From contig JAJYEE010000013.1 of the NCBI GenBank assembly GCA_021790335.1, forward strand, positions 1-61,560: 61,560 nucleotides of DNA, written 5' to 3'. Shown in pieces: positions 5,040-42,612 of this stretch; the first letter of the stretch is position 1; each line of letters opens with the position of its first letter. The DNA is from Pseudomonadota bacterium. Its GTDB lineage: Bacteria > Pseudomonadota > Gammaproteobacteria > Acidiferrobacterales > UBA6901. The position numbers were made by a program, and so were the translations under genes. Below the pieces are notes generated by a model. It made no database searches, was not told where the DNA came from, and saw only the letters and a program-made list of their open reading frames with translations.

Positions 5040-5229
5040 TGTACCTGTCAGCTCCGCTGGCGGCTGGCGAGCGCCCGGAAATTTAGAAGCATTGTAGCAC
5101 AGCGGTCGCGCTCCACGCTGGGTGCGCGTGCTAGCACACCGCTCACGCAGGTGTAAAATGGGCTGACCCGCGGTTTAACTTGAAACCGGTGCCCTCCCCA
5201 ACTCGCACCCAAGGTTGTCCTTCATCGGC

Positions 5230-7110
5230 ATGACGATCAGTTCCAGAGCCAAGTCCATTGCCGCCCATCTCGCACCGCTTGCGATGTGGATGGCGGCCGC
5301 GATGCGCTCCGCCACACGTGCCGCGCGCACCACGGTTGCCGCGCTTTCGGCAGGCATCTTCACGGTTCTGGGGGCACTCGGCTTTCGCAGGGTCCCGCGT
5401 CCTGCCGGCCAGGCACAGCAGCGCAGGCTTGCATTGTTCCCGGAACGCAATCCGGATCCGGTACTGGCCCTGTCCGCGGACGGGCAGGTGATTTACTCCA
5501 ATGCCGGCGCCAGGGAAATGCTGAAGGATCTGGGAGGCAAGGAAGACATCCGCGAACTGCTGCCGACGGATGTGCGACAGCGCCTCGAAATCCTGCGCGC
5601 CCTGCCCTCCGCCAGACAGGTCTGGGAGTACCCCAAGGGCAATCACGTACTTGCCTGCAGCATCCACTTTCTCGCTGACCGGGACGAATTTCACGCCTAT
5701 ATCGCCGATATCACCCGTCACAGCCGTGTCGAGGCCCGGCTGTCGCACCAGGCGCACCACGACACCCTGACCGGACTGCCCAACCGCAGGCAGTTCCAGG
5801 AGCGCATCGAGCAGCTACTGGCGACGCGCGCCGGCGGTCGGCACCTGGCGGTGATCCTGATGGATCTGGACCGATTCAACGTCATCACACGCAGTCTTGG
5901 TCACGGCGTTGGTGACGGCCTGCTGCAGGCGGTAACCGCACGCCTTGAGCACCTGCTCGTCGGGGAGCGGGCCGTGAGTGCCGATGCGACACTTTACCGC
6001 TTCGAGGCGGATGTGTTCGCCATTCTCGTTCCCGGATTCACCGAACCCCAGATTCCGCTGCATCTGGCGGAACGGATGCTTGCCGGCATACAGCAGCCGC
6101 TGTATGTGAACACACGCGAATATTTCGTCACTTTCAGTATCGGCGTGAGCATCTATCCGGTCGATGGCGAAGACGGCATCTCGCTGCTGCGCAATGCCGA
6201 CACGGCAATGCAACGGGCCAAGCAGCGTGGCGGAAACAATCTCCAGGCCTATTCCCAGGAGATGAATGCGCGCGCCGCCGAGTCCCTGTCGCTCGAAAAT
6301 TACCTGCGGCATGCCATGGAACACAACGAGCTGCGCCTGCATTTCCAGCCGGAAGTCGATACGCGCAGCGGGCAAATCACCGGCGTCGAAGTCCTGCTGC
6401 GCTGGACGCATCCGGAACGCGGGGTAATCATGCCTTCGGAGTTTATCCCGCTCGCGGAGGAAACCGGCATGATCGTTCCGATCGGGGAATGGACGTTGCG
6501 GGCTGCGTGCGCGCAAAGCAAGGCATGGAGCAGCGCAGGACTTGCGGCGCTGACCATGGCCGTGAACATTTCCGCGCGCCAGTTCCATCAGCAGGATCTT
6601 CCCGGTCTTGTAAGACGCATTCTGGAGGAAACCGGTCTCGATCCGCTAATGCTGGAGCTCGAGATCACTGAAGGCGTGGCCATGCAGGACGTCGAACACA
6701 CGCGCGCCACTCTCAAGCAGCTGAAAGCCATAGGAGTCCGGCTGTCAATCGATGACTTCGGAACCGGATTTTCGTCGCTCAACTATCTGCGTCGTTTCCC
6801 GATAGACCGACTCAAGATCGACCAGTCGTTCGTGCACAACCTCACCACCGACGAGAATGATGCCGCCGTCACCCGCGCTATCATAGGGCTCGCCCACAGC
6901 CTGAGGCTGAAAGTGATCGCAGAGGGAGTAGAAACCCCTGAGCAGCTCGTCCGGCTGCGCCGCGAGGGCTGCGACATGGTGCAGGGCTACTACATGTACC
7001 GGCCGCTCGGCGCATCGGCCCTGGAAGAAGTTCTGCGCGCGAAACCCGCACCATGGATGACACGCACCGATCCGCAGCGGACACCTGCTAACAGGCGCCC
7101 GGGCTCATAG
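5230..7110 (+). CDS. PAS–GGDEF(degenerate)–EAL protein, probable c-di-GMP phosphodiesterase
   Basis: A protein of about 626 residues. One hydrophobic segment near residues 38–55 may anchor it in the membrane. A PAS domain (about 75–165), a GGDEF domain (about 175–345) and an EAL domain (about 355–610) follow. The cyclase signature reads EADVF at about residue 258 instead of GGDEF, so cyclase activity is unlikely. The EAL domain keeps its catalytic set: E-V-L-L-R-W in the EAL position, the ELEITEG Glu, DDFGTGFSS, LKIDQSFV and AEGVET. It should therefore hydrolyse c-di-GMP, with the GGDEF perhaps sensing GTP. A TTG at 5215 is possible, but it sits directly on the AAGG stretch, so the ATG at 5230 was preferred. 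Confidence 0.88.
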   Translation: MTISSRAKSIAAHLAPLAMWMAAAMRSATRAARTTVAALSAGIFTVLGALGFRRVPRPAGQAQQRRLALFPERNPDPVLALSADGQVIYSNAGAREMLKDLGGKEDIRELLPTDVRQRLEILRALPSARQVWEYPKGNHVLACSIHFLADRDEFHAYIADITRHSRVEARLSHQAHHDTLTGLPNRRQFQERIEQLLATRAGGRHLAVILMDLDRFNVITRSLGHGVGDGLLQAVTARLEHLLVGERAVSADATLYRFEADVFAILVPGFTEPQIPLHLAERMLAGIQQPLYVNTREYFVTFSIGVSIYPVDGEDGISLLRNADTAMQRAKQRGGNNLQAYSQEMNARAAESLSLENYLRHAMEHNELRLHFQPEVDTRSGQITGVEVLLRWTHPERGVIMPSEFIPLAEETGMIVPIGEWTLRAACAQSKAWSSAGLAALTMAVNISARQFHQQDLPGLVRRILEETGLDPLMLELEITEGVAMQDVEHTRATLKQLKAIGVRLSIDDFGTGFSSLNYLRRFPIDRLKIDQSFVHNLTTDENDAAVTRAIIGLAHSLRLKVIAEGVETPEQLVRLRREGCDMVQGYYMYRPLGASALEEVLRAKPAPWMTRTDPQRTPANRRPGS

Positions 7111-7536: not shown

Positions 7537-7980
7537 GTGGGACAATCACTTGAACTTCGAATAAGGGACATTCCGGCAACGGGCCGGGCGGACCGTGCAT
7601 GGGCATACTCGGAAGCGTACACCGCCGCGCCAGCACGTTCCGGAATGCCAGCAGCACAGCGGCGAGGTTACCGCACCAGCCTGCGCAAGCAGATACCGTT
7701 CGAGACCCTGGTAAACTGCGGCATGACGTACTCTGTGCCCTGGAACATCATCAACCTCGGACTGGGTGGCGCGCTCGTCGGGATGGAGCACACAACACTG
7801 CAGGTTGGTGCCACCGTAGAGTTCGAGCTTCGCTTCACCCATCGCGGCCGACGCATCGAGCACGTCATACCCGCAAGAATCGTTCGTCTGGAGCCGCGCG
7901 GCGTCGCCCTGCAGTTCGGCGACTACGATGACGCGACCTATACTGACCTGACCAATTTTTTGTACGACATCGAAGGATAA
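7537..7980 (+). CDS. PilZ-domain protein (c-di-GMP receptor candidate)
   Basis: A 147-residue soluble protein. A GTG at 7537 is the start, with TGAGGA upstream. After about 40 loosely structured residues, a PilZ domain covers about residues 42–145: the basic QRRGYRTSLRKQIPF stretch corresponds to the RxxxR switch, although the spacing is not canonical. It is followed by NLGLGGALVGM in the D/NxSxxG position and the beta-barrel strands up to VALQFGDYDD. The D/NxSxxG serine appears as Leu-Gly, so ligand binding is likely but not certain. The neighbouring EAL gene and the later cyclases fit a local c-di-GMP circuit. Confidence 0.8.
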   Translation: MGQSLELRIRDIPATGRADRAWAYSEAYTAAPARSGMPAAQRRGYRTSLRKQIPFETLVNCGMTYSVPWNIINLGLGGALVGMEHTTLQVGATVEFELRFTHRGRRIEHVIPARIVRLEPRGVALQFGDYDDATYTDLTNFLYDIEG

Positions 7981-11238: not shown

Positions 11239-12396
11239 TCAGTCCATGCGCGCAAGACTTTCCTTGATGGATTTCAGCTCCTGCCCGATCTCAAGCGAAA
11301 ATTTCGCATTACAGAATTCAAGCAGCGGGACTGCGCTCAGCGCAAGCTGCAGCGCGTATGGCTCAAGCTGTCCGATTTCATTACGCGCAAGCAACCGCAG
11401 GGCCTCGTCGAGACCGGGCTGCTCGATGACCGCTTCCTCGATCCGATGAACATCCGAATCGTCGCCGACACAGCTGCGGTCTCCGGTGGAGGCAGCCGTC
11501 TTCAGGCGCTTGTAGGCGAGACTATGCAGCTCCTCCAGCGAGCCGCCCGGATCATGGCCCGAAGAGACGAGGCCGAGACTGACAGTCACGGCCGCATCTA
11601 CTCCATCGTGTCTGAATGGCTGCGATGAAACTGCCGCGCGCAGGCGCTCGCACAGCATCGCTGCCTCCAACCGCCCGAGAGACAGGGTCATGACGGAAAA
11701 TTCCGAATTCCCGGTACGCGAGATCAGGTCTTCCTTGCGTGTCTTCGTCCGAACCAGATCGGCGATCCAGATCAGCACGTGGTCCGCATACTCGTCTCCG
11801 TGCCGGGCACGCAGCGAGATGAAATCATCGACGCTCAGGCGCAGAACCGAAACCAGATTCCCGGTCGCGAGCGCCGCGGCCAGAACCTCCCGACCGCGTT
11901 CGAGGAAGCGGCGGCGATTATCAAGGCGGGTTAGGCTGTCGATATGAGACTGATCACCAAGTGATGCAGCTGTTGCCGCTACGTCGGCGCCTTCCTGATC
12001 GGACTGGGCCAAATTACGGACACAGGCCAGCAGCTGTACCGAATCGATCGGCTTGGTGATAAAGTCGTTTGCTCCGCAGGCATAGGCACGCTCACGGGTG
12101 ATATCGTCTTCCGCACCGGTGATGACGACCACCGGTACCCCGCTGATGCGCGATTCGTCGGCTGCACGAATTCGGCAGATCAGCGAGTACCCGTCAAGCT
12201 TTGGCATCATCACGTCGCTGATGACAACCTGAATGCGGTTATCGTGTCGCAATTTCTCCCAGCCGGACTCACCGTCCTCCGACTCGACGAGATCAAACTC
12301 CTGACTGAGAACGCGCTGAACAGCCACACGCATAAGGCGTGAGTCGTCCACCACCAAGACCCGCGTTTTTTCTGCCGCTCTTTCGCCCGTCTGCAT
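11239..12396 (-). CDS. Response regulator REC–GGDEF(degenerate)
   Basis: A 385-residue protein. The receiver domain (about 10–130) keeps the acidic pair Asp17-Asp18, the phospho-acceptor Asp61 (ISDVMMPK) and Lys115, so it can be phosphorylated. The GGDEF domain (about 150–310) has the signature GNSEF at 229–233 in place of GGDEF, so cyclase activity is doubtful. A C-terminal extension of about 70 residues has no recognised domain. The ATG at 12396 is preceded by GGAAG at good spacing; an upstream in-frame start at 12468 is less likely. No partner histidine kinase is adjacent, so it is an orphan regulator whose output may be protein binding. Confidence 0.85.
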   Translation of the reverse strand: MQTGERAAEKTRVLVVDDSRLMRVAVQRVLSQEFDLVESEDGESGWEKLRHDNRIQVVISDVMMPKLDGYSLICRIRAADESRISGVPVVVITGAEDDITRERAYACGANDFITKPIDSVQLLACVRNLAQSDQEGADVAATAASLGDQSHIDSLTRLDNRRRFLERGREVLAAALATGNLVSVLRLSVDDFISLRARHGDEYADHVLIWIADLVRTKTRKEDLISRTGNSEFSVMTLSLGRLEAAMLCERLRAAVSSQPFRHDGVDAAVTVSLGLVSSGHDPGGSLEELHSLAYKRLKTAASTGDRSCVGDDSDVHRIEEAVIEQPGLDEALRLLARNEIGQLEPYALQLALSAVPLLEFCNAKFSLEIGQELKSIKESLARMD

Positions 12397-13029
12397 AGTT
12401 TTCTTCCGCAAAATCTCGCCGCCGACGTCTGTCCATCCGGCATACTGCCAGCGCCCTGACCGCCGCACACCGGCGTCGGCCCTTCATAAAAACTAGCACA
12501 AAGTGTGCCAAATGCCCGGATATTGACGCTGGCTGGGGGCACCGGCCTGACGGAGCTGAAACGATGAAAAGCCCATTCACCGGGCAAGCGCAATCGCGCC
12601 CCGGTCGCTGACGGCATTCCGCGCGATGGCGAGCCAGTACCGTTGCCCTATTTCCCTGCCGTTGTCTGCAAGCCAGGATGCAGTCATACGCCTGCAGGCA
12701 TGATCGCCAAGACCAGCCGCTACAGGCAGCGGAATAAAGAGCGTGCGGACCATGCTGCACCCGGGCATAAATCGCAGACATGTCAGGGCGGTTTGTCTGC
12801 CTGGGTCGCGCCTATACCGCTGCAACCTGCAGTCGAGATCGCTCGAAGGACTGCCGGTCCTGAAGCAATGCGTCGTCCGGCCCGCATGGCATGGAGATTG
12901 CATGTAACCTTATTGAAAATCTCCATGAAGGGGCCGTAATGAACAAAAACGGGCGGCCCTGGCACTACAGCAGTTTTTGCCTTCCGGTTCGGCACCGAAC
13001 CCGCTGCGGGCTGCTCTTTAGCAGTCCGG
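12397..13029. other. Divergent intergenic region upstream of the stressosome operon
   Basis: This 633-bp region lies between the REC-GGDEF gene (minus) and the operon starting at 13030 (plus). It should hold promoters for both. Several minus-strand frames lie in it (12577–12903 is the longest that does not shadow a gene), but none has a domain or a ribosome-binding site. No convincing sigma-factor boxes or palindromes were found by eye. Confidence 0.3.
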
Positions 13030-14025
13030 ATGCAGCCGGCTACGGTGACCCCTATGCCGGAAAAGAATGTGGCCAATGACATGAAACAGCTGCTCAGCCT
13101 GACGATCATGATCGAGCCGGACCGCCGACGTCTTGCGCGGTTTGCGATCGATGCCGTGCAGGCCGCTGGCGGCAATGTCTTTGCGGCGGCGGTCTCGCTG
13201 GACGCGATCCTGAGCGATCTGCGCGGAGCGGGAACTGGCGCGATCGAACCGTCGCGTGCCGAGTTGTCGGTCGATGACGACCGCATGTATCTCACGTGGA
13301 ACGGACACCGAGGGCTTCTGAGCCGCCTTCCGGAAAAACTGTCCGACGTGGAATTGAACAAGCTTAGCGAGCAATTTCGCCGTGCCGGAGAATCGACCGA
13401 CCCCGAGCTTCTGCGCCGGCGCAACCAGGAGATCAGTGCGGAGCTGGAACGCGCCAAGGTACGCGCGGCAGCCGAAATGGCCGGACTCGAAGCAGCACTC
13501 GACAGGAAGAAAGCCGAACTTCGGGAATCGATACGCGTGGCCGAAACGGACAGCCTCACCGGACTGATGAACCGCGGCGCCTATGATGCCCGGCTGCATG
13601 AGGCAGTAGCGCGCTGTCAGCGGCAACACGAGAAGCTGTGTCTGATCCTTCTCGATCTGGACAAGTTCAAGGAAATCAACGACACACATGGACACCAATT
13701 CGGAGATGAATATCTAAAGCGCATGGCCGCGGCCATGCGCGCATCCGTACGCGATAACGTTGATCTTCCCTGCCGTACGGGAGGAGACGAATTCGCCATC
13801 ATCCTGTTCGCCGACATGGCGATCGCGCGGCACGCGGCGCGACGGATCCTCGAAAGAATGGAAGGCCGCACCAGTATCGGCATCACCGAACTGCGAAATC
13901 AGGACAACACCACATCGTTTGTGGCCCGCGCCGATGCTGCCCTTTACGAAGCAAAGCGTCAGGGACGCGGCCGCTACGTGGATTTCGATTCAATGACGCC
14001 TCAGGAAATTCGGGAAAAAGCATGA
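13030..14025 (+). CDS. Diguanylate cyclase, first gene of a stressosome-like operon
   Basis: A 331-residue soluble protein. An N-terminal alpha/beta region (about 18–105) of unknown family is followed by a helical, probably coiled-coil linker (about 105–172, rich in Glu, Arg and Ala) and a complete GGDEF domain (about 172–325). The signature GGDEF stands at 251–255, preceded by the metal and base contacts (LDLDKFKEIND, GHQFGDEYL). No RxxD inhibitory site is visible five residues upstream, so product inhibition by the classical I-site is not expected. The stop codon overlaps the next start (ATGA at 14022–14025), which ties it to the RsbT–RsbX-like gene. In-frame ATGs at 13054 and 13081 are alternative starts. 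It is the probable output enzyme of the unit. Confidence 0.88.
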   Translation: MQPATVTPMPEKNVANDMKQLLSLTIMIEPDRRRLARFAIDAVQAAGGNVFAAAVSLDAILSDLRGAGTGAIEPSRAELSVDDDRMYLTWNGHRGLLSRLPEKLSDVELNKLSEQFRRAGESTDPELLRRRNQEISAELERAKVRAAAEMAGLEAALDRKKAELRESIRVAETDSLTGLMNRGAYDARLHEAVARCQRQHEKLCLILLDLDKFKEINDTHGHQFGDEYLKRMAAAMRASVRDNVDLPCRTGGDEFAIILFADMAIARHAARRILERMEGRTSIGITELRNQDNTTSFVARADAALYEAKRQGRGRYVDFDSMTPQEIREKA

Positions 14026-15077
14026 ACGACGCGCAGATGGCCCCGACGCCGGTCCGCATGCTCGTGGAGCAGAGCGTAAAAAGCGAAAGCGGACAGGTAC
14101 TTCTGCGCTCCAAGCTGCGCGCCGTATCCCGCCGCATGGGATTCTCCCAAATCGCGCGTGAACGCATGGAGCTGGTTTGCAATGAAATGGTCACCAACCA
14201 GATGAAGTTCGCCAACGGCAGCGGCCTGGTGCAGGTGTGGGAAATGCACCTGCCGCAGCCGGCGCTCGACATATTCGCCCTGGATTACGGTCCGGGCATT
14301 CCCGACCTGGAACGCGCGCTGCGCGACGGCTTCACGACAGCCAATACGCTTGGAAAGGGTCTGGGCGCCATACACCGGCTCGCACACGAAAGTGCAATCT
14401 ACTCGGTCCCACAGGCGAATGCCACGGAGCTACCTTGGCATGGAACAGCAATCTGGGCGCGTTTCAACACCATTGAATCCAGGCCCATACAGTCGCCGAT
14501 ACCGCAATACGGTATCTGCCTGCGCGCCTACCAGGACAGCCTGTTTAACGGCGATGCGCTTGCCGTGACCACCAACCGTACGCAGACGCGATGGCTGCAC
14601 GTGGACGGCCTCGGTCACGGGCAGGAAGCTGCCGAGGCAGTGCGGGGCGCCGAGACCATCCTGCGCGAAAACGCGTCTCTGGGCACACTGATGAAGTCTC
14701 TCGATCAGCGGCTCAGTGGCTCGCGCGGGGCTGTGGGTCTGCTGTGCGAGACCGATCATGCGCGAAACTCGCTGGCTTTCATAGGCGTCGGAGACGTTAG
14801 CGCCTATCTGATCTGCAACGGAGAGCGGCGCAGTATCGCGTTTCCGCCTGGCATTCTGGGTCACGACCATAGAAACCCGCACGTCGAATCACTGCAGTTT
14901 CCGCCGCAGGCCCTGTTCCTGACGAGCTCCGACGGCCTGCGCAGAAACTGGACGCTACGGTCATTTCCGGGATTGTGGAGGCTGCACCCGCAGCTCATTG
15001 CCTTCGTTCTCTCCCAGGTAACGAGCCGCGGAAACGACGACCGGTCGCTGTTCGTGATCCGAACCGCACCAAATTGA
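14022..15077 (+). CDS. RsbT–RsbX fusion: HATPase anti-sigma-type kinase joined to a PP2C/SpoIIE phosphatase
   Basis: A 351-residue protein with two halves. Residues about 20–150 form a GHKL kinase domain of RsbT/RsbW type: an N-box (ELVCNEMVTNQMKFA), the G1 box DYGPGIPD, and the G2 box LGKGLGAIHRL. Residues about 160–350 form a PP2C-like phosphatase of RsbX/SpoIIE type with the metal-binding Asp residues in HVDGLGHG, TSSDGL and GNDDRSL. In Bacillus these are two proteins of opposite function: RsbT phosphorylates RsbR and RsbS, and RsbX removes the phosphates. Here one chain carries both. It overlaps the cyclase gene by 4 bp and is followed ten bases later by the RsbR-like gene. Confidence 0.85.
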   Translation: MNDAQMAPTPVRMLVEQSVKSESGQVLLRSKLRAVSRRMGFSQIARERMELVCNEMVTNQMKFANGSGLVQVWEMHLPQPALDIFALDYGPGIPDLERALRDGFTTANTLGKGLGAIHRLAHESAIYSVPQANATELPWHGTAIWARFNTIESRPIQSPIPQYGICLRAYQDSLFNGDALAVTTNRTQTRWLHVDGLGHGQEAAEAVRGAETILRENASLGTLMKSLDQRLSGSRGAVGLLCETDHARNSLAFIGVGDVSAYLICNGERRSIAFPPGILGHDHRNPHVESLQFPPQALFLTSSDGLRRNWTLRSFPGLWRLHPQLIAFVLSQVTSRGNDDRSLFVIRTAPN

Positions 15078-15087
15078 GGACACTTCC

Positions 15088-15966
15088 ATGACGACACCCG
15101 CACCCGCCCGACGCACGACGAATCAAATTCTGATCGACCTGCTCATGCTCAACGTCGGGAAGATTTCGACCATCATTGAGCAGCAGGGTCATAGCATATT
15201 CGGCCAGGCCAACCTGCTGTCCAAGGAAGAGATCAACGACTACAGCCTCGAATTCCTCGAACTCGTGGTCATGCTGCTCCAGTCCGCAACCCACATGGAT
15301 AGGCGCAGTGCCGAATTCAATGCGCTGCGCAAGTTCTTTACGACTTTTTCCCAGCAGATCCAGGCACGCGGCAGCAATCTCGACGAGTTCGTACGCTACA
15401 TTCAGTTCCTCCAACGCGTCTTCCTCGACAACCTGGAGGCTGATGCCACTGTCGATTTTGCCCAGTCGCGCGAGATACTGCTATTGCTCGCATCCATTTT
15501 CAACGACATCATACTGGATGTCTTCCACGTCTATCTCGAAGAGAAGGAGCGCACCATCCAGGCACAGCAGGAGGAATTGCGCCAGACGTCGACTCCGATC
15601 ACCGAGATCTGGGACGGGGTGCTGACCCTGCCGATCATCGGCACCCTGGACTCCACGCGCACCATGATGGTAATGGAGCACCTGCTGTCTCGAATCGAGG
15701 CGGAAAGGGCCAGGGTGGTCGTCATCGACGTTACCGGAGTAATGGCCATCGACTCGCAGGTTTCACATCATCTTATTCAGATGATTCGCGCTGTGGGGTT
15801 AATGGGCGCCGATGCCGTGCTCACCGGTATCCGCCCAGAGATCGCACGATCCCTGACCAGTCTGAACATTGACCTCGGCATGGTCACGACCCGCGCGACC
15901 CTGTCAGAGGGTCTGAAAGAAGCGTTCCGCCGGCTGCGAGTGGAAGTCCGCCAGGGTAACGGCTAG
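15088..15966 (+). CDS. RsbR-like stressosome sensor with C-terminal STAS domain
   Basis: A 292-residue protein. The N-terminal half (about 1–160) is helical and resembles the sensory domains of RsbR paralogues (RsbRD-like) rather than a globin with a clear haem His. A short helix with Glu/Gln (EEKERTIQAQQEELRQTS) joins it to a STAS domain (about 172–285). Within it, DVTGVMAIDS and LTGI keep threonines in the positions that RsbT phosphorylates in Bacillus RsbR (Thr171 and Thr205). A good ribosome-binding site, GAGG, stands eight bases before the ATG. It should form the stressosome shell together with the RsbS-like protein. Confidence 0.85.
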   Translation: MTTPAPARRTTNQILIDLLMLNVGKISTIIEQQGHSIFGQANLLSKEEINDYSLEFLELVVMLLQSATHMDRRSAEFNALRKFFTTFSQQIQARGSNLDEFVRYIQFLQRVFLDNLEADATVDFAQSREILLLLASIFNDIILDVFHVYLEEKERTIQAQQEELRQTSTPITEIWDGVLTLPIIGTLDSTRTMMVMEHLLSRIEAERARVVVIDVTGVMAIDSQVSHHLIQMIRAVGLMGADAVLTGIRPEIARSLTSLNIDLGMVTTRATLSEGLKEAFRRLRVEVRQGNG

Positions 15967-16013
15967 CACGTCCCGACCCTCATCGCCCAGTCCGTGATCC
16001 GCATAAAACTTTC

Positions 16014-16403
16014 ATGATACCCGGAATACATCTCACTCCCATCGGCGACGACAGCGTGCTGCTGGAGCCTGGCGACGGCCTCGACCCGACCGACCCAAAC
16101 GCCTATCTCGTGCCGCTGCTCGCGTTTCTACAAAAAAAACGAGCGCGTTTTCTGATCTACGACCTCAAGAACGTGGCGCTGATCGACCGCGTATACTATG
16201 AATGGATGACCGCCATGAATTCGCTTTGCCTGATATCCGGCATCCGGATGGTGGTGGCAAATATCCGTCCGTACGCTGCCTTCGCGCTATCACAACTGAT
16301 AAGCGACGACCCGCCATTTGCCTGCGCACTGGACGTCGACAGTGCACGCCAGGCCATTTCGCGTCTTGCCGGATCGGATACCGGGACTGGCACCGGCCCA
16401 TAG
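16014..16403 (+). CDS. RsbS-like STAS protein lacking the phosphorylatable serine
   Basis: A 129-residue protein that is essentially one STAS domain (about 1–120), the size of RsbS. The loop before the second helix reads YDLKNVALIDRVYY: the Asp is kept at 58 but residue 59 is Arg, where RsbS has the Ser (Ser59 in Bacillus) that RsbT phosphorylates. The core hydrophobic strands (FLIYDLK, RMVVANI) are intact, so it is not a decayed gene. It lies 47 bp after the RsbR-like gene and ends the operon. A Gly/Thr tail (DTGTGTGP) follows the domain. The family call rests on fold pattern, length and position. Confidence 0.75.
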   Translation: MIPGIHLTPIGDDSVLLEPGDGLDPTDPNAYLVPLLAFLQKKRARFLIYDLKNVALIDRVYYEWMTAMNSLCLISGIRMVVANIRPYAAFALSQLISDDPPFACALDVDSARQAISRLAGSDTGTGTGP

Positions 16404-16672
16404 CTACATCGATGCACCTAGCACGCAGACCGGCGCCGCCGGGCGGGCCACGGACGCTGCCGCGTGGCGATCGCACATGGGCTTGTTTCACCTCACAGCG
16501 ACCTTTTCTGGCACGCCAGGCTGGTCAGATCAAAACCCCCGATCCGTGACGTGATCGAATCTCGACACCCGTCGGAAAGACGCCGCATACTCCCTCCGGC
16601 ATGTCAACGTATTGCTGTGTCGAAACGTTATTTTCTTGGAAAATGAAGTATTGCGGACATCACGAGGCGGAC

Positions 16673-17710
16673 ATGCGGAGCATCCACAGAGCGGTCACCC
16701 TGTTTTTCGTTGCGCTGACGATCCTGGCAGCGCCACGGGTTTCTCTCGGCCAGATCAGCGTTGGCGTATCCATCTCGATCGGACCCCCGGCTTTGCCCGT
16801 TTACGTTCAGCCTCCCTGTCCCGGACCGCGCTTCATGTGGATTCCAGGTTTCTGGGCATGGGCCACAAACGGCTATTACTGGGTTCCGGGCACCTGGGTT
16901 CTTGTCCCTCGGCCGGGCCTCCTATGGACCCCGGGCTATTGGGGATGGCGTGCGGGCTTCTATGTGTGGCACCCGGGATACTGGGCTCGTCGTGTCGGGT
17001 ACTATGGCGGCATCAACTACGGTTTCGGCTATACCGGGTACGGATACGCCGGGGGCTATTGGCATCGCGGAGTCTTTTTCTATAACCGCAGCGTCAACAA
17101 CATCGACGTCAATGTCATTCGCAACACATACTACCGCGCCGTCGTCCGCAACGTGACGGAGAACCGTGCAAGCTACAACGGAGGACCCGGCGGAATCACC
17201 CTGCGCCCGACTCGCGCGCAGCTCATATATGCACGTGAACGGCATTATGGGTTGACCCGGGTGCAGGAGCTCCACAATCGCACAGCCCGGGGAATACCGA
17301 CGCTTCGCGCCTCCGTCAATCGTGGCCGGCCCATGATCGCGGCAACGCAAAGGCCAGGGGCATTCCATGGGCGTGGAGTGGTCCCGGCTGCCAGGTTGGG
17401 CGGCCGCTACCCGCCGCGCATGAGCCCGATGCGGCCTGAACGGCGCTTTCCGGCACCGTCACAGCGGCCCTATGGCCGCAATGAACACCCCGGCAACCAC
17501 GGAAATCTTTTCGAGCACCCCCAGCCCTCGAATACCCGCAGCGATCACTTCCGGCCGGGCCCAATGCGGAACGGGCCGAATCCAGGCCGCAGGCGACCCC
17601 CGCAGGCAGCGGGGCGGCACGAGCGCCGCCGGCCGCAGAACGGGAGACAGCCAGATCGCCAACGCCAACGCGAAAATCGCAGGAATAACAACGGCCAGAG
17701 ATTCCCATAG
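16673..17710 (+). CDS. Secreted protein with aromatic WxPGxW-type repeats
   Basis: A 345-residue exported protein. The ATG at 16673 is preceded by GAGG and starts a signal peptide (MRSIHRAVTLFFVALTILAA, cleavage near SLGQ). The mature N-terminal half is extremely rich in Trp, Tyr, Gly and Pro and carries repeats of the form W-x-P-G-x-W (WIPGFWAW, WVPGTWVL, WTPGYWGW, WHPGYW). This pattern is known from YXWXPGXW-repeat proteins of Proteobacteria, whose function is not settled but which are linked to the envelope. The C-terminal 150 residues are Arg, Pro, Asn and Gln-rich and look disordered and strongly basic. Confidence 0.8.
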   Translation: MRSIHRAVTLFFVALTILAAPRVSLGQISVGVSISIGPPALPVYVQPPCPGPRFMWIPGFWAWATNGYYWVPGTWVLVPRPGLLWTPGYWGWRAGFYVWHPGYWARRVGYYGGINYGFGYTGYGYAGGYWHRGVFFYNRSVNNIDVNVIRNTYYRAVVRNVTENRASYNGGPGGITLRPTRAQLIYARERHYGLTRVQELHNRTARGIPTLRASVNRGRPMIAATQRPGAFHGRGVVPAARLGGRYPPRMSPMRPERRFPAPSQRPYGRNEHPGNHGNLFEHPQPSNTRSDHFRPGPMRNGPNPGRRRPPQAAGRHERRRPQNGRQPDRQRQRENRRNNNGQRFP

Positions 17711-41245: not shown

Positions 41246-41337
41246 GCTGTAGAGAGCGGCCGAACTGGAGCCGAGGATGACAGCCGCTGCAGGGGCCGTT
41301 GTGCACATTCGTAATGCCGCACTAGACGCAATTGCTG

Positions 41338-42612
41338 ATGAGCCGAAAGATCGATGTTCACGAGCTGCGCAAGGGAATGTATGTTTGCGAGCTTGATCGC
41401 CCCTGGGTAGGAACTCCATTCCTGTTCCAGGGCTTCGAGATCCGGACCGATGAGGAACTCGAGAAACTGCGCGGCCTGTGTCGCCACGTGTACGTTACCG
41501 ACGAACCGGCGACGCCTGCCGTTACGCATCGCAAGGCGGCTGCTCCCTCCGGCCCATCGGCGATCTTGTCCAGCGTCACCACCGTTGACCATGTCCGCGA
41601 CTTCGGCGCATTCCCCAAATCGCGCCGGGCGCCGCCACGCTACCGCGACCAGGTCAGCCTGGAGGAAGAGATGGAGGCGGCACGTCCGCTGGAATCGGGC
41701 ACGCGCGCGCTGATTCATTCGATCATGGACGATGTGCGCCTCGGAAACAGTCTCAATGCCACGCCAGTAAGACAGGCCGTCGACGGAATGGTCAACAGCA
41801 TAGTGCGCAATCCCGACGCGCTGGTGTGGCTGACCCAGCTCAAGAACAAGGATGAGTACACCGCCCTGCACAGCCTGCGGGTATGCATCCTGGCGCTGAC
41901 GTTCGGCCGTCATCTGGATCTTTCGGAGGAGGAACTCAATGTACTCGGTACCGGAGCGCTGCTGCACGATATCGGCAAACTCAGGGTTCCCAACGACATC
42001 CTGAACAAGCCGGCGCGGCTCACCGACCAGGAGTATGAGATCATGAAGACGCACGTCCCGCTCGGCGTGCGGATTCTCGACAATACCCACGGTATTCATG
42101 CGGCGGCTATTGCAGTAGCACGCTGCCACCATGAGCGCTACAGCGGCTCAGGCTACATCAACGGCATTACCGGAGACCAGATCGGTCTGTTCGGTCTGAT
42201 CGGCGCCATCGTGGATACCTATGATGCGATCACCAGCGATCGCGCCTACCACAACGGGCTTTCGGCATACGACGCGCTGAAAAAACTCTACGAAGGGCGC
42301 GACAAGGATTTCCACCCAGGTCTCGTGGAACAGTTCATCCAGTGCATGGGCATCTATCCGATCGGCAGCATCGTGGAATTGAATACCGGCAGCGTGGGTG
42401 TGGTGATTACCGTGAACCGCGAACGCCGCCTGCGACCGAAGGTCGCGCTGGTGCTCGATGAAAACAAAAATCCCCATGCGATCTCCCCGGTTCTCGATCT
42501 GTTCCACACCCTTTCCGATACTTCCGGGGCGGCCCTCGAGATACGCCGGGTTCTGCCGTCCGGTGCCTACGGCATCAATCCCAACAGCTTTCTGCCATCC
42601 GTCAAGGCTTAA
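41338..42612 (+). CDS. HD-GYP-type c-di-GMP phosphodiesterase with N-terminal DUF3391
   Basis: A 424-residue protein. An N-terminal DUF3391-type domain (about 1–130; DVHELRKGMYVCELDRPWVGTPF) leads to the HD-GYP domain (about 155–330). The HD pair is in LLHDIGK, further metal ligands lie in KTHV and in HHERYSGSGYINGI, and DTYDAITSDR follows. In that last signature the Pro of GYP is replaced by Ile (G-Y-I). The metal ligands are kept, so hydrolysis of c-di-GMP to GMP is still plausible, but partner binding through GYP may differ. The ATG at 41338 was chosen over TTG at 41332. Confidence 0.85.
   Translation: MSRKIDVHELRKGMYVCELDRPWVGTPFLFQGFEIRTDEELEKLRGLCRHVYVTDEPATPAVTHRKAAAPSGPSAILSSVTTVDHVRDFGAFPKSRRAPPRYRDQVSLEEEMEAARPLESGTRALIHSIMDDVRLGNSLNATPVRQAVDGMVNSIVRNPDALVWLTQLKNKDEYTALHSLRVCILALTFGRHLDLSEEELNVLGTGALLHDIGKLRVPNDILNKPARLTDQEYEIMKTHVPLGVRILDNTHGIHAAAIAVARCHHERYSGSGYINGITGDQIGLFGLIGAIVDTYDAITSDRAYHNGLSAYDALKKLYEGRDKDFHPGLVEQFIQCMGIYPIGSIVELNTGSVGVVITVNRERRLRPKVALVLDENKNPHAISPVLDLFHTLSDTSGAALEIRRVLPSGAYGINPNSFLPSVKA

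Follow-up and report, generated by a model that had tools for sequence, protein, structure and literature searches.

The RsbRST stressosome is a particle of about 1.8 MDa, built from R and S proteins, that sequesters and releases a kinase. In Moorella thermoacetica, homologues of RsbR, RsbS, RsbT and RsbX are tied to a GGDEF enzyme, MtG; later accounts of that work describe MtG as RsbU_N-GAF-GGDEF and MtS as retaining its serine (Quin et al. 2012, cited in PMC12143880 and PMC4976288). Control over MtG is exerted by the RsbU N-domain together with RsbT, and RsbT acts on RsbU by ordering a coiled-coil linker (PMC12143880). A stressosome driving a second-messenger enzyme has thus already been published, and rsbRSTX modules near c-di-GMP enzymes have been listed: those of Proteobacteria, found in Vibrio vulnificus and others, have varied outputs, some of them adjoining c-di-GMP enzymes (PMC9237108). 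The SiaABCD system of Pseudomonas aeruginosa combines a kinase/phosphatase switch with a diguanylate cyclase that has a long coiled-coil stalk, SiaD, which SiaC activates by binding the stalk (PMC8457831).

We describe a related four-gene module from a gammaproteobacterial genome of the order Acidiferrobacterales. The window is the whole stretch of DNA analysed, 61,560 nucleotides of contig JAJYEE010000013.1. The initial annotation had called an operon of a diguanylate cyclase (DGC), an RsbT–RsbX fusion (TX), an RsbR-like protein (R) and an RsbS-like protein (S), and all four open reading frames were found in place, on the forward strand and in one operon:

13030-14025, + strand: DGC, with an alternative ATG at 13081 as probable true start
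14022-15077, + strand: TX, a HATPase kinase-PP2C fusion with HATPase_c_2 and SpoIIE Pfam matches
15088-15966, + strand: R, an RsbR-like sensor with STAS and weak RsbRD_N Pfam matches
16014-16403, + strand: S, an RsbS-like single STAS protein whose family profile matches RsbS

The later DGC start is the one that the alignment suggests. Overlaps of 4 bp had been described for the operon; this is right for DGC and TX only, the TX-R and R-S junctions being gaps of 10 and 47 bp. The DGC/TX overlap fits a coupled pair. A scan for promoters and terminators gave nothing exceeding chance.

Looking for the same gene order in other genomes, a check proposed with the initial annotation, gave a positive answer. 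Complete, contiguous DGC-TX-R-S loci are present in 27 gammaproteobacterial genomes, and two further loci end at contig ends; this recurrence is well beyond chance. Of 369 genomes sampled from the class, 15 gave strong matches to the S profile, and among 398 genomes of the phylum its strong matches were confined to the same class, with one addition (G622). All module loci found are from Gammaproteobacteria, and related records include Sulfuricaulis, order Acidiferrobacterales. Flanking genes are shared only among close relatives and other gene companions vary, and so we take the four genes to be the unit. Judged by its sequences, the unit has intact enzymes and an intact sensor and has been conserved as a whole. 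Three genomes (G012, G048 and G082) carry a separate R-S-T-X module besides DGC-TX-R-S, which makes the latter a parallel, separate system.

The rest of the window's genome, which is 97.6% complete, agrees with the earlier statement that the operon has no sigma factor and no RsbU, RsbV or RsbW gene: no other HATPase_c_2 match passed the cut-off, leaving no second RsbT/W-like kinase at that level, and there is no RsbU-like phosphatase. Next to the one other SpoIIE/PP2C match is an FHA-domain-like protein, and the match itself resembles a phosphatase of the PrpC/Stp type. The remaining STAS matches comprise a transporter of the SulP type and, judging by its neighbours, a probable MlaB.

The window holds further c-di-GMP-related genes that had been proposed to work alongside the module:

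5215-7110, + strand: GGDEF-EAL protein
7666-7965, + strand: PilZ protein
41332-42612, + strand: DUF3391/HD-GYP-type protein

These genes are present as described, but the proposed link is not supported, since in distant genomes they are not found next to the module. Upstream of the module and divergent from it lies a gene for a REC-GGDEF protein (11239-12468, - strand), which neighbours the module in the four genomes compared from the window's genus; its signature is degenerate (RTGNSEF), and so it is probably inactive as a cyclase. Downstream, 16601-17710 (+ strand) encodes a secreted-looking, low-complexity protein with WXXGXW repeats.

TX matches HATPase_c_2 (E 1.3e-6) and SpoIIE (E 9.6e-7) in Pfam. 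An RsbT-like HATPase kinase domain (residues ~11-150) is followed by an RsbX-class PP2C phosphatase domain (~160-348), and the kinase residues Glu55 and Asn59 and the PP2C aspartate are conserved in 28 of 28 relatives. The closest structure to the phosphatase half is Moorella RsbX (3zt9, E 4e-22), and B. subtilis RsbX is matched at E 1e-10; these matches assign it to the RsbX class, so that the module would have the feedback phosphatase of RsbX type as a fused domain. Module X domains form one clade in the X-domain tree. Module kinase domains likewise form one clade (support 100/100), apart from stand-alone RsbT; in the midpoint-rooted tree they group beside the T' domains of the HATPase-PP2C fusions from R-S-T-T'X operons (97/90), a placement that we treat as moderate evidence, given a short joining branch, a long branch to the module and midpoint rooting. 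The kinase occurs in the module only as a fused domain, and a stand-alone RsbT is lacking.

R has a STAS match at E 4e-15 and a weak RsbRD_N match, the latter made also by all 21 aligned relatives, and its STAS domain matches the RsbR of a solved stressosome at E about 1e-29. It consists of a globin-like N-domain, a linker helix and the STAS domain. Its structure model superposes on full-length Listeria RsbR with Z 18.8 over 265 residues (rmsd 14.8) and on the RsbR N-domain 2bnl with Z 13.4. The T171-type acceptor is Ser223 in the window and is kept in 29 of 29 R proteins (26 Ser, 3 Thr), whereas the T205-type site is Ala in 22 of 29 and Ser255 in the window. R thus has what marks an RsbR, an N-terminal sensor and a STAS domain with a T171-type acceptor. 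No invariant His is present in its N-domain, and the model places His147, found in 24 of 29, in the long linker helix, which makes heme binding unlikely. A plasmid search for R returned only distant RsbR-like proteins, below 60% identity.

S is so diverged that single-sequence searches scarcely detect it; alone it scores 12 bits against Pfam STAS, under the cut-off. The family profile matches RsbS of solved stressosomes (E 8e-7) and aligns at 96% probability with RsbS of separate R-S-T-X loci. S has the single STAS domain of an RsbS, but not its S59-type acceptor. Arg59 of the window protein occupies that position, which among 28 S members holds R, E, G, N, A, T, K, P, Q or D and in no case Ser, though the Asp preceding it is invariant; RsbS from six separate R-S-T-X loci keeps the Ser in all six. 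The position is Thr in three of the 28, which may be phosphorylated there. A conserved DxxYxxW motif starts the helix after the S59 position, with Tyr61 and Trp64 each found in 27 of 28. At Thr8 (16035-16037), part of an HLT motif in the first strand, all 28 members have Ser or Thr.

Two features of an RsbRST stressosome, the S59-type acceptor and a stand-alone RsbT, are missing, and so we call the module stressosome-derived rather than canonical. Its assembly into an R/S particle is putative.

DGC matches the Pfam GGDEF domain at E 1e-35. Its structure model (mean pLDDT 88) shows an alpha/beta N-domain (about residues 18-104) in the order strand-helix-helix-three strands-helix. Residues 105-172 form a helix and coiled-coil stalk with a SESxDxELLxRRN motif, a 48-residue stalk helix running into the intact GGDEF domain (173-318). 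The GGDEF signature and substrate residues are kept in 28 of 28 module DGCs, which would make them intact cyclases. At the I-site none of the 28 has RxxD, and 25 have RxxxD, with the Arg displaced by one residue; the RxxD product-inhibition site is unnecessary for cyclase activity.

The N-domain matched no Pfam family. With E values up to 1 allowed, RsbU_N matched neither the window DGC nor any of 20 module N-domains; since the model is alpha/beta and not a four-helix bundle, we rejected RsbU_N as its identity. A degenerate RsbT or STAS domain, also considered, gave no signal in profile comparison. Searches and profile comparison found no sequence similarity to RsbT or to any known RsbT target, and a profile of the N-region had no significant match to solved structures. 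The best Foldseek match of the whole model is SiaD, in match lists filled by GGDEF domains and so covering the GGDEF part rather than the N-domain. The N-domain profile matched 10 of 185 genomes of the class, all ten S-positive, with one copy each and always within the module. We regard it as a new cyclase input domain, seen so far only with the module in this 185-genome sample. Mirror-tree residuals, after removal of the background, singled out no partner for it.

The module differs from each of the systems described above. Its likeness to Moorella is the tie of R, S, T and X homologues to a GGDEF enzyme; it differs in the T-X fusion, the order DGC-TX-R-S, the acceptor-less S and the DGC N-domain. 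With the Proteobacterial rsbRSTX modules it shares being a Gram-negative R/S/T/X set without a sigma factor, but there T and X are separate genes downstream of R and S, and S keeps its Ser. R-S-T-T'X operons share the HATPase-PP2C fusion and additionally carry a separate RsbT, which the module lacks; two such loci (L050, L053) include a hybrid histidine kinase, and L123 holds the R-S-T-T'X part. The hybrid kinases (L050:6432-8600, L053:242-2608) begin with an RsbT-like HATPase_c_2 domain (E about 1e-16) followed by HisKA, an arrangement in which the output would contain a switch-kinase domain of its own. Two other loci, L119 and L121, have R-S-TX with a kinase-phosphatase fusion, and the search found no separate RsbT in them; their T sits with stand-alone RsbT in the tree, so T-X fusion may have more than one origin. 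The SiaABCD system resembles the module in its kinase/phosphatase switch and stalked DGC, but SiaC, in contrast to S, carries an acceptor Thr of its own and is no STAS protein of the RsbS type.

On balance, we think that the four genes probably constitute a self-contained, stressosome-derived partner switch whose dedicated output is its own DGC. R, with globin-like sensor and STAS domain, and the acceptor-less S would form a STAS core holding the bifunctional TX. A stress signal arriving via the globin-like domain of R would alter this holding. TX would phosphorylate R at Ser223, the only acceptor that all family members retain, and R would be reset by the PP2C domain fused to the kinase; S would have turned into a structural component or an adaptor. 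TX, once released or moved to a new position (most likely), or S, once released, would then engage the N-domain and stalk of DGC. The engaged partner would order the coiled coil, such that two GGDEF domains dimerise and produce c-di-GMP.

A canonical stressosome with a DGC output would instead work like that of Moorella, with RsbS phosphorylation freeing RsbT to bind an RsbU-type domain of the cyclase. This account is favoured by the operon itself, which joins a DGC to homologues of R, S, T and X, by the MtG precedent and by the known rsbRSTX modules adjoining c-di-GMP enzymes. What stands of the initial annotation's proposal is the kinship to stressosomes and the DGC as the sole conserved companion. 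The Moorella arrangement itself does not: the Ser is missing from all 28 S proteins, the cyclase has a modelled alpha/beta domain in place of RsbU_N, and the kinase, rather than being a stand-alone RsbT, forms its own clade, closer (by the midpoint-rooted tree) to T' of the T'X fusions. We therefore judge this account unlikely.

Alternatively, DGC could itself be the sequestered subunit, its N-domain being an eroded GHKL domain of RsbT type through which it docks on R/S while TX competes for the same STAS surface. The N-domain follows the order strand-helix-helix-strand-strand, as GHKL domains such as SpoIIAB do in their first half; the output histidine kinase of the related R-S-T-T'X operons has an N-terminal RsbT-like HATPase_c_2 domain; and the N-domain is found only together with the module. 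Profile comparison of the N-domain with RsbT and the module T domains nevertheless gave a probability under 1%, and we consider docking of this kind improbable. Equally doubtful is the wider proposal that joins this docking to a natural stressosome-like signalling without RsbS phosphorylation and with one RsbR acceptor, c-di-GMP synthesis being switched by direct release of a DGC that the STAS core holds via a degenerate RsbT-like N-domain. That S is a SiaC/HsbA-like activator binding the DGC stalk, its availability governed by TX and R, is very unlikely: S has lost its acceptor and gained the conserved DxxYxxW surface, and the DGC stalk and GGDEF domain are similar to those of SiaD, but SiaC and HsbA are regulated by their own phosphorylation while S lacks the usual site, and DGC scores 124 bits on the NCBIfam SiaD equivalog, below its cut-off of 290, with no SiaD match for the N-region profile.

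For the four-gene arrangement, the acceptor-less RsbS and the DGC N-domain, we found no description in the literature searched, mostly papers open without subscription. The necessity of RsbS phosphorylation for stressosomes is debated. In B. subtilis, an RsbS S59A mutant still responds; S59 phosphorylation boosts efficiency, is non-essential and has been suggested to be a later addition to a more basic mechanism (PMC3944199). Among the 28 S proteins of the module family, a naturally occurring lineage, none has the S59-type Ser, and the kinase, phosphatase and RsbR acceptor are retained, so that the question of RsbS phosphorylation can be asked in a native system. The self-contained, stressosome-derived switch that we favour makes the module a candidate for a minimal four-protein stress-to-c-di-GMP switch in environmental gammaproteobacteria.
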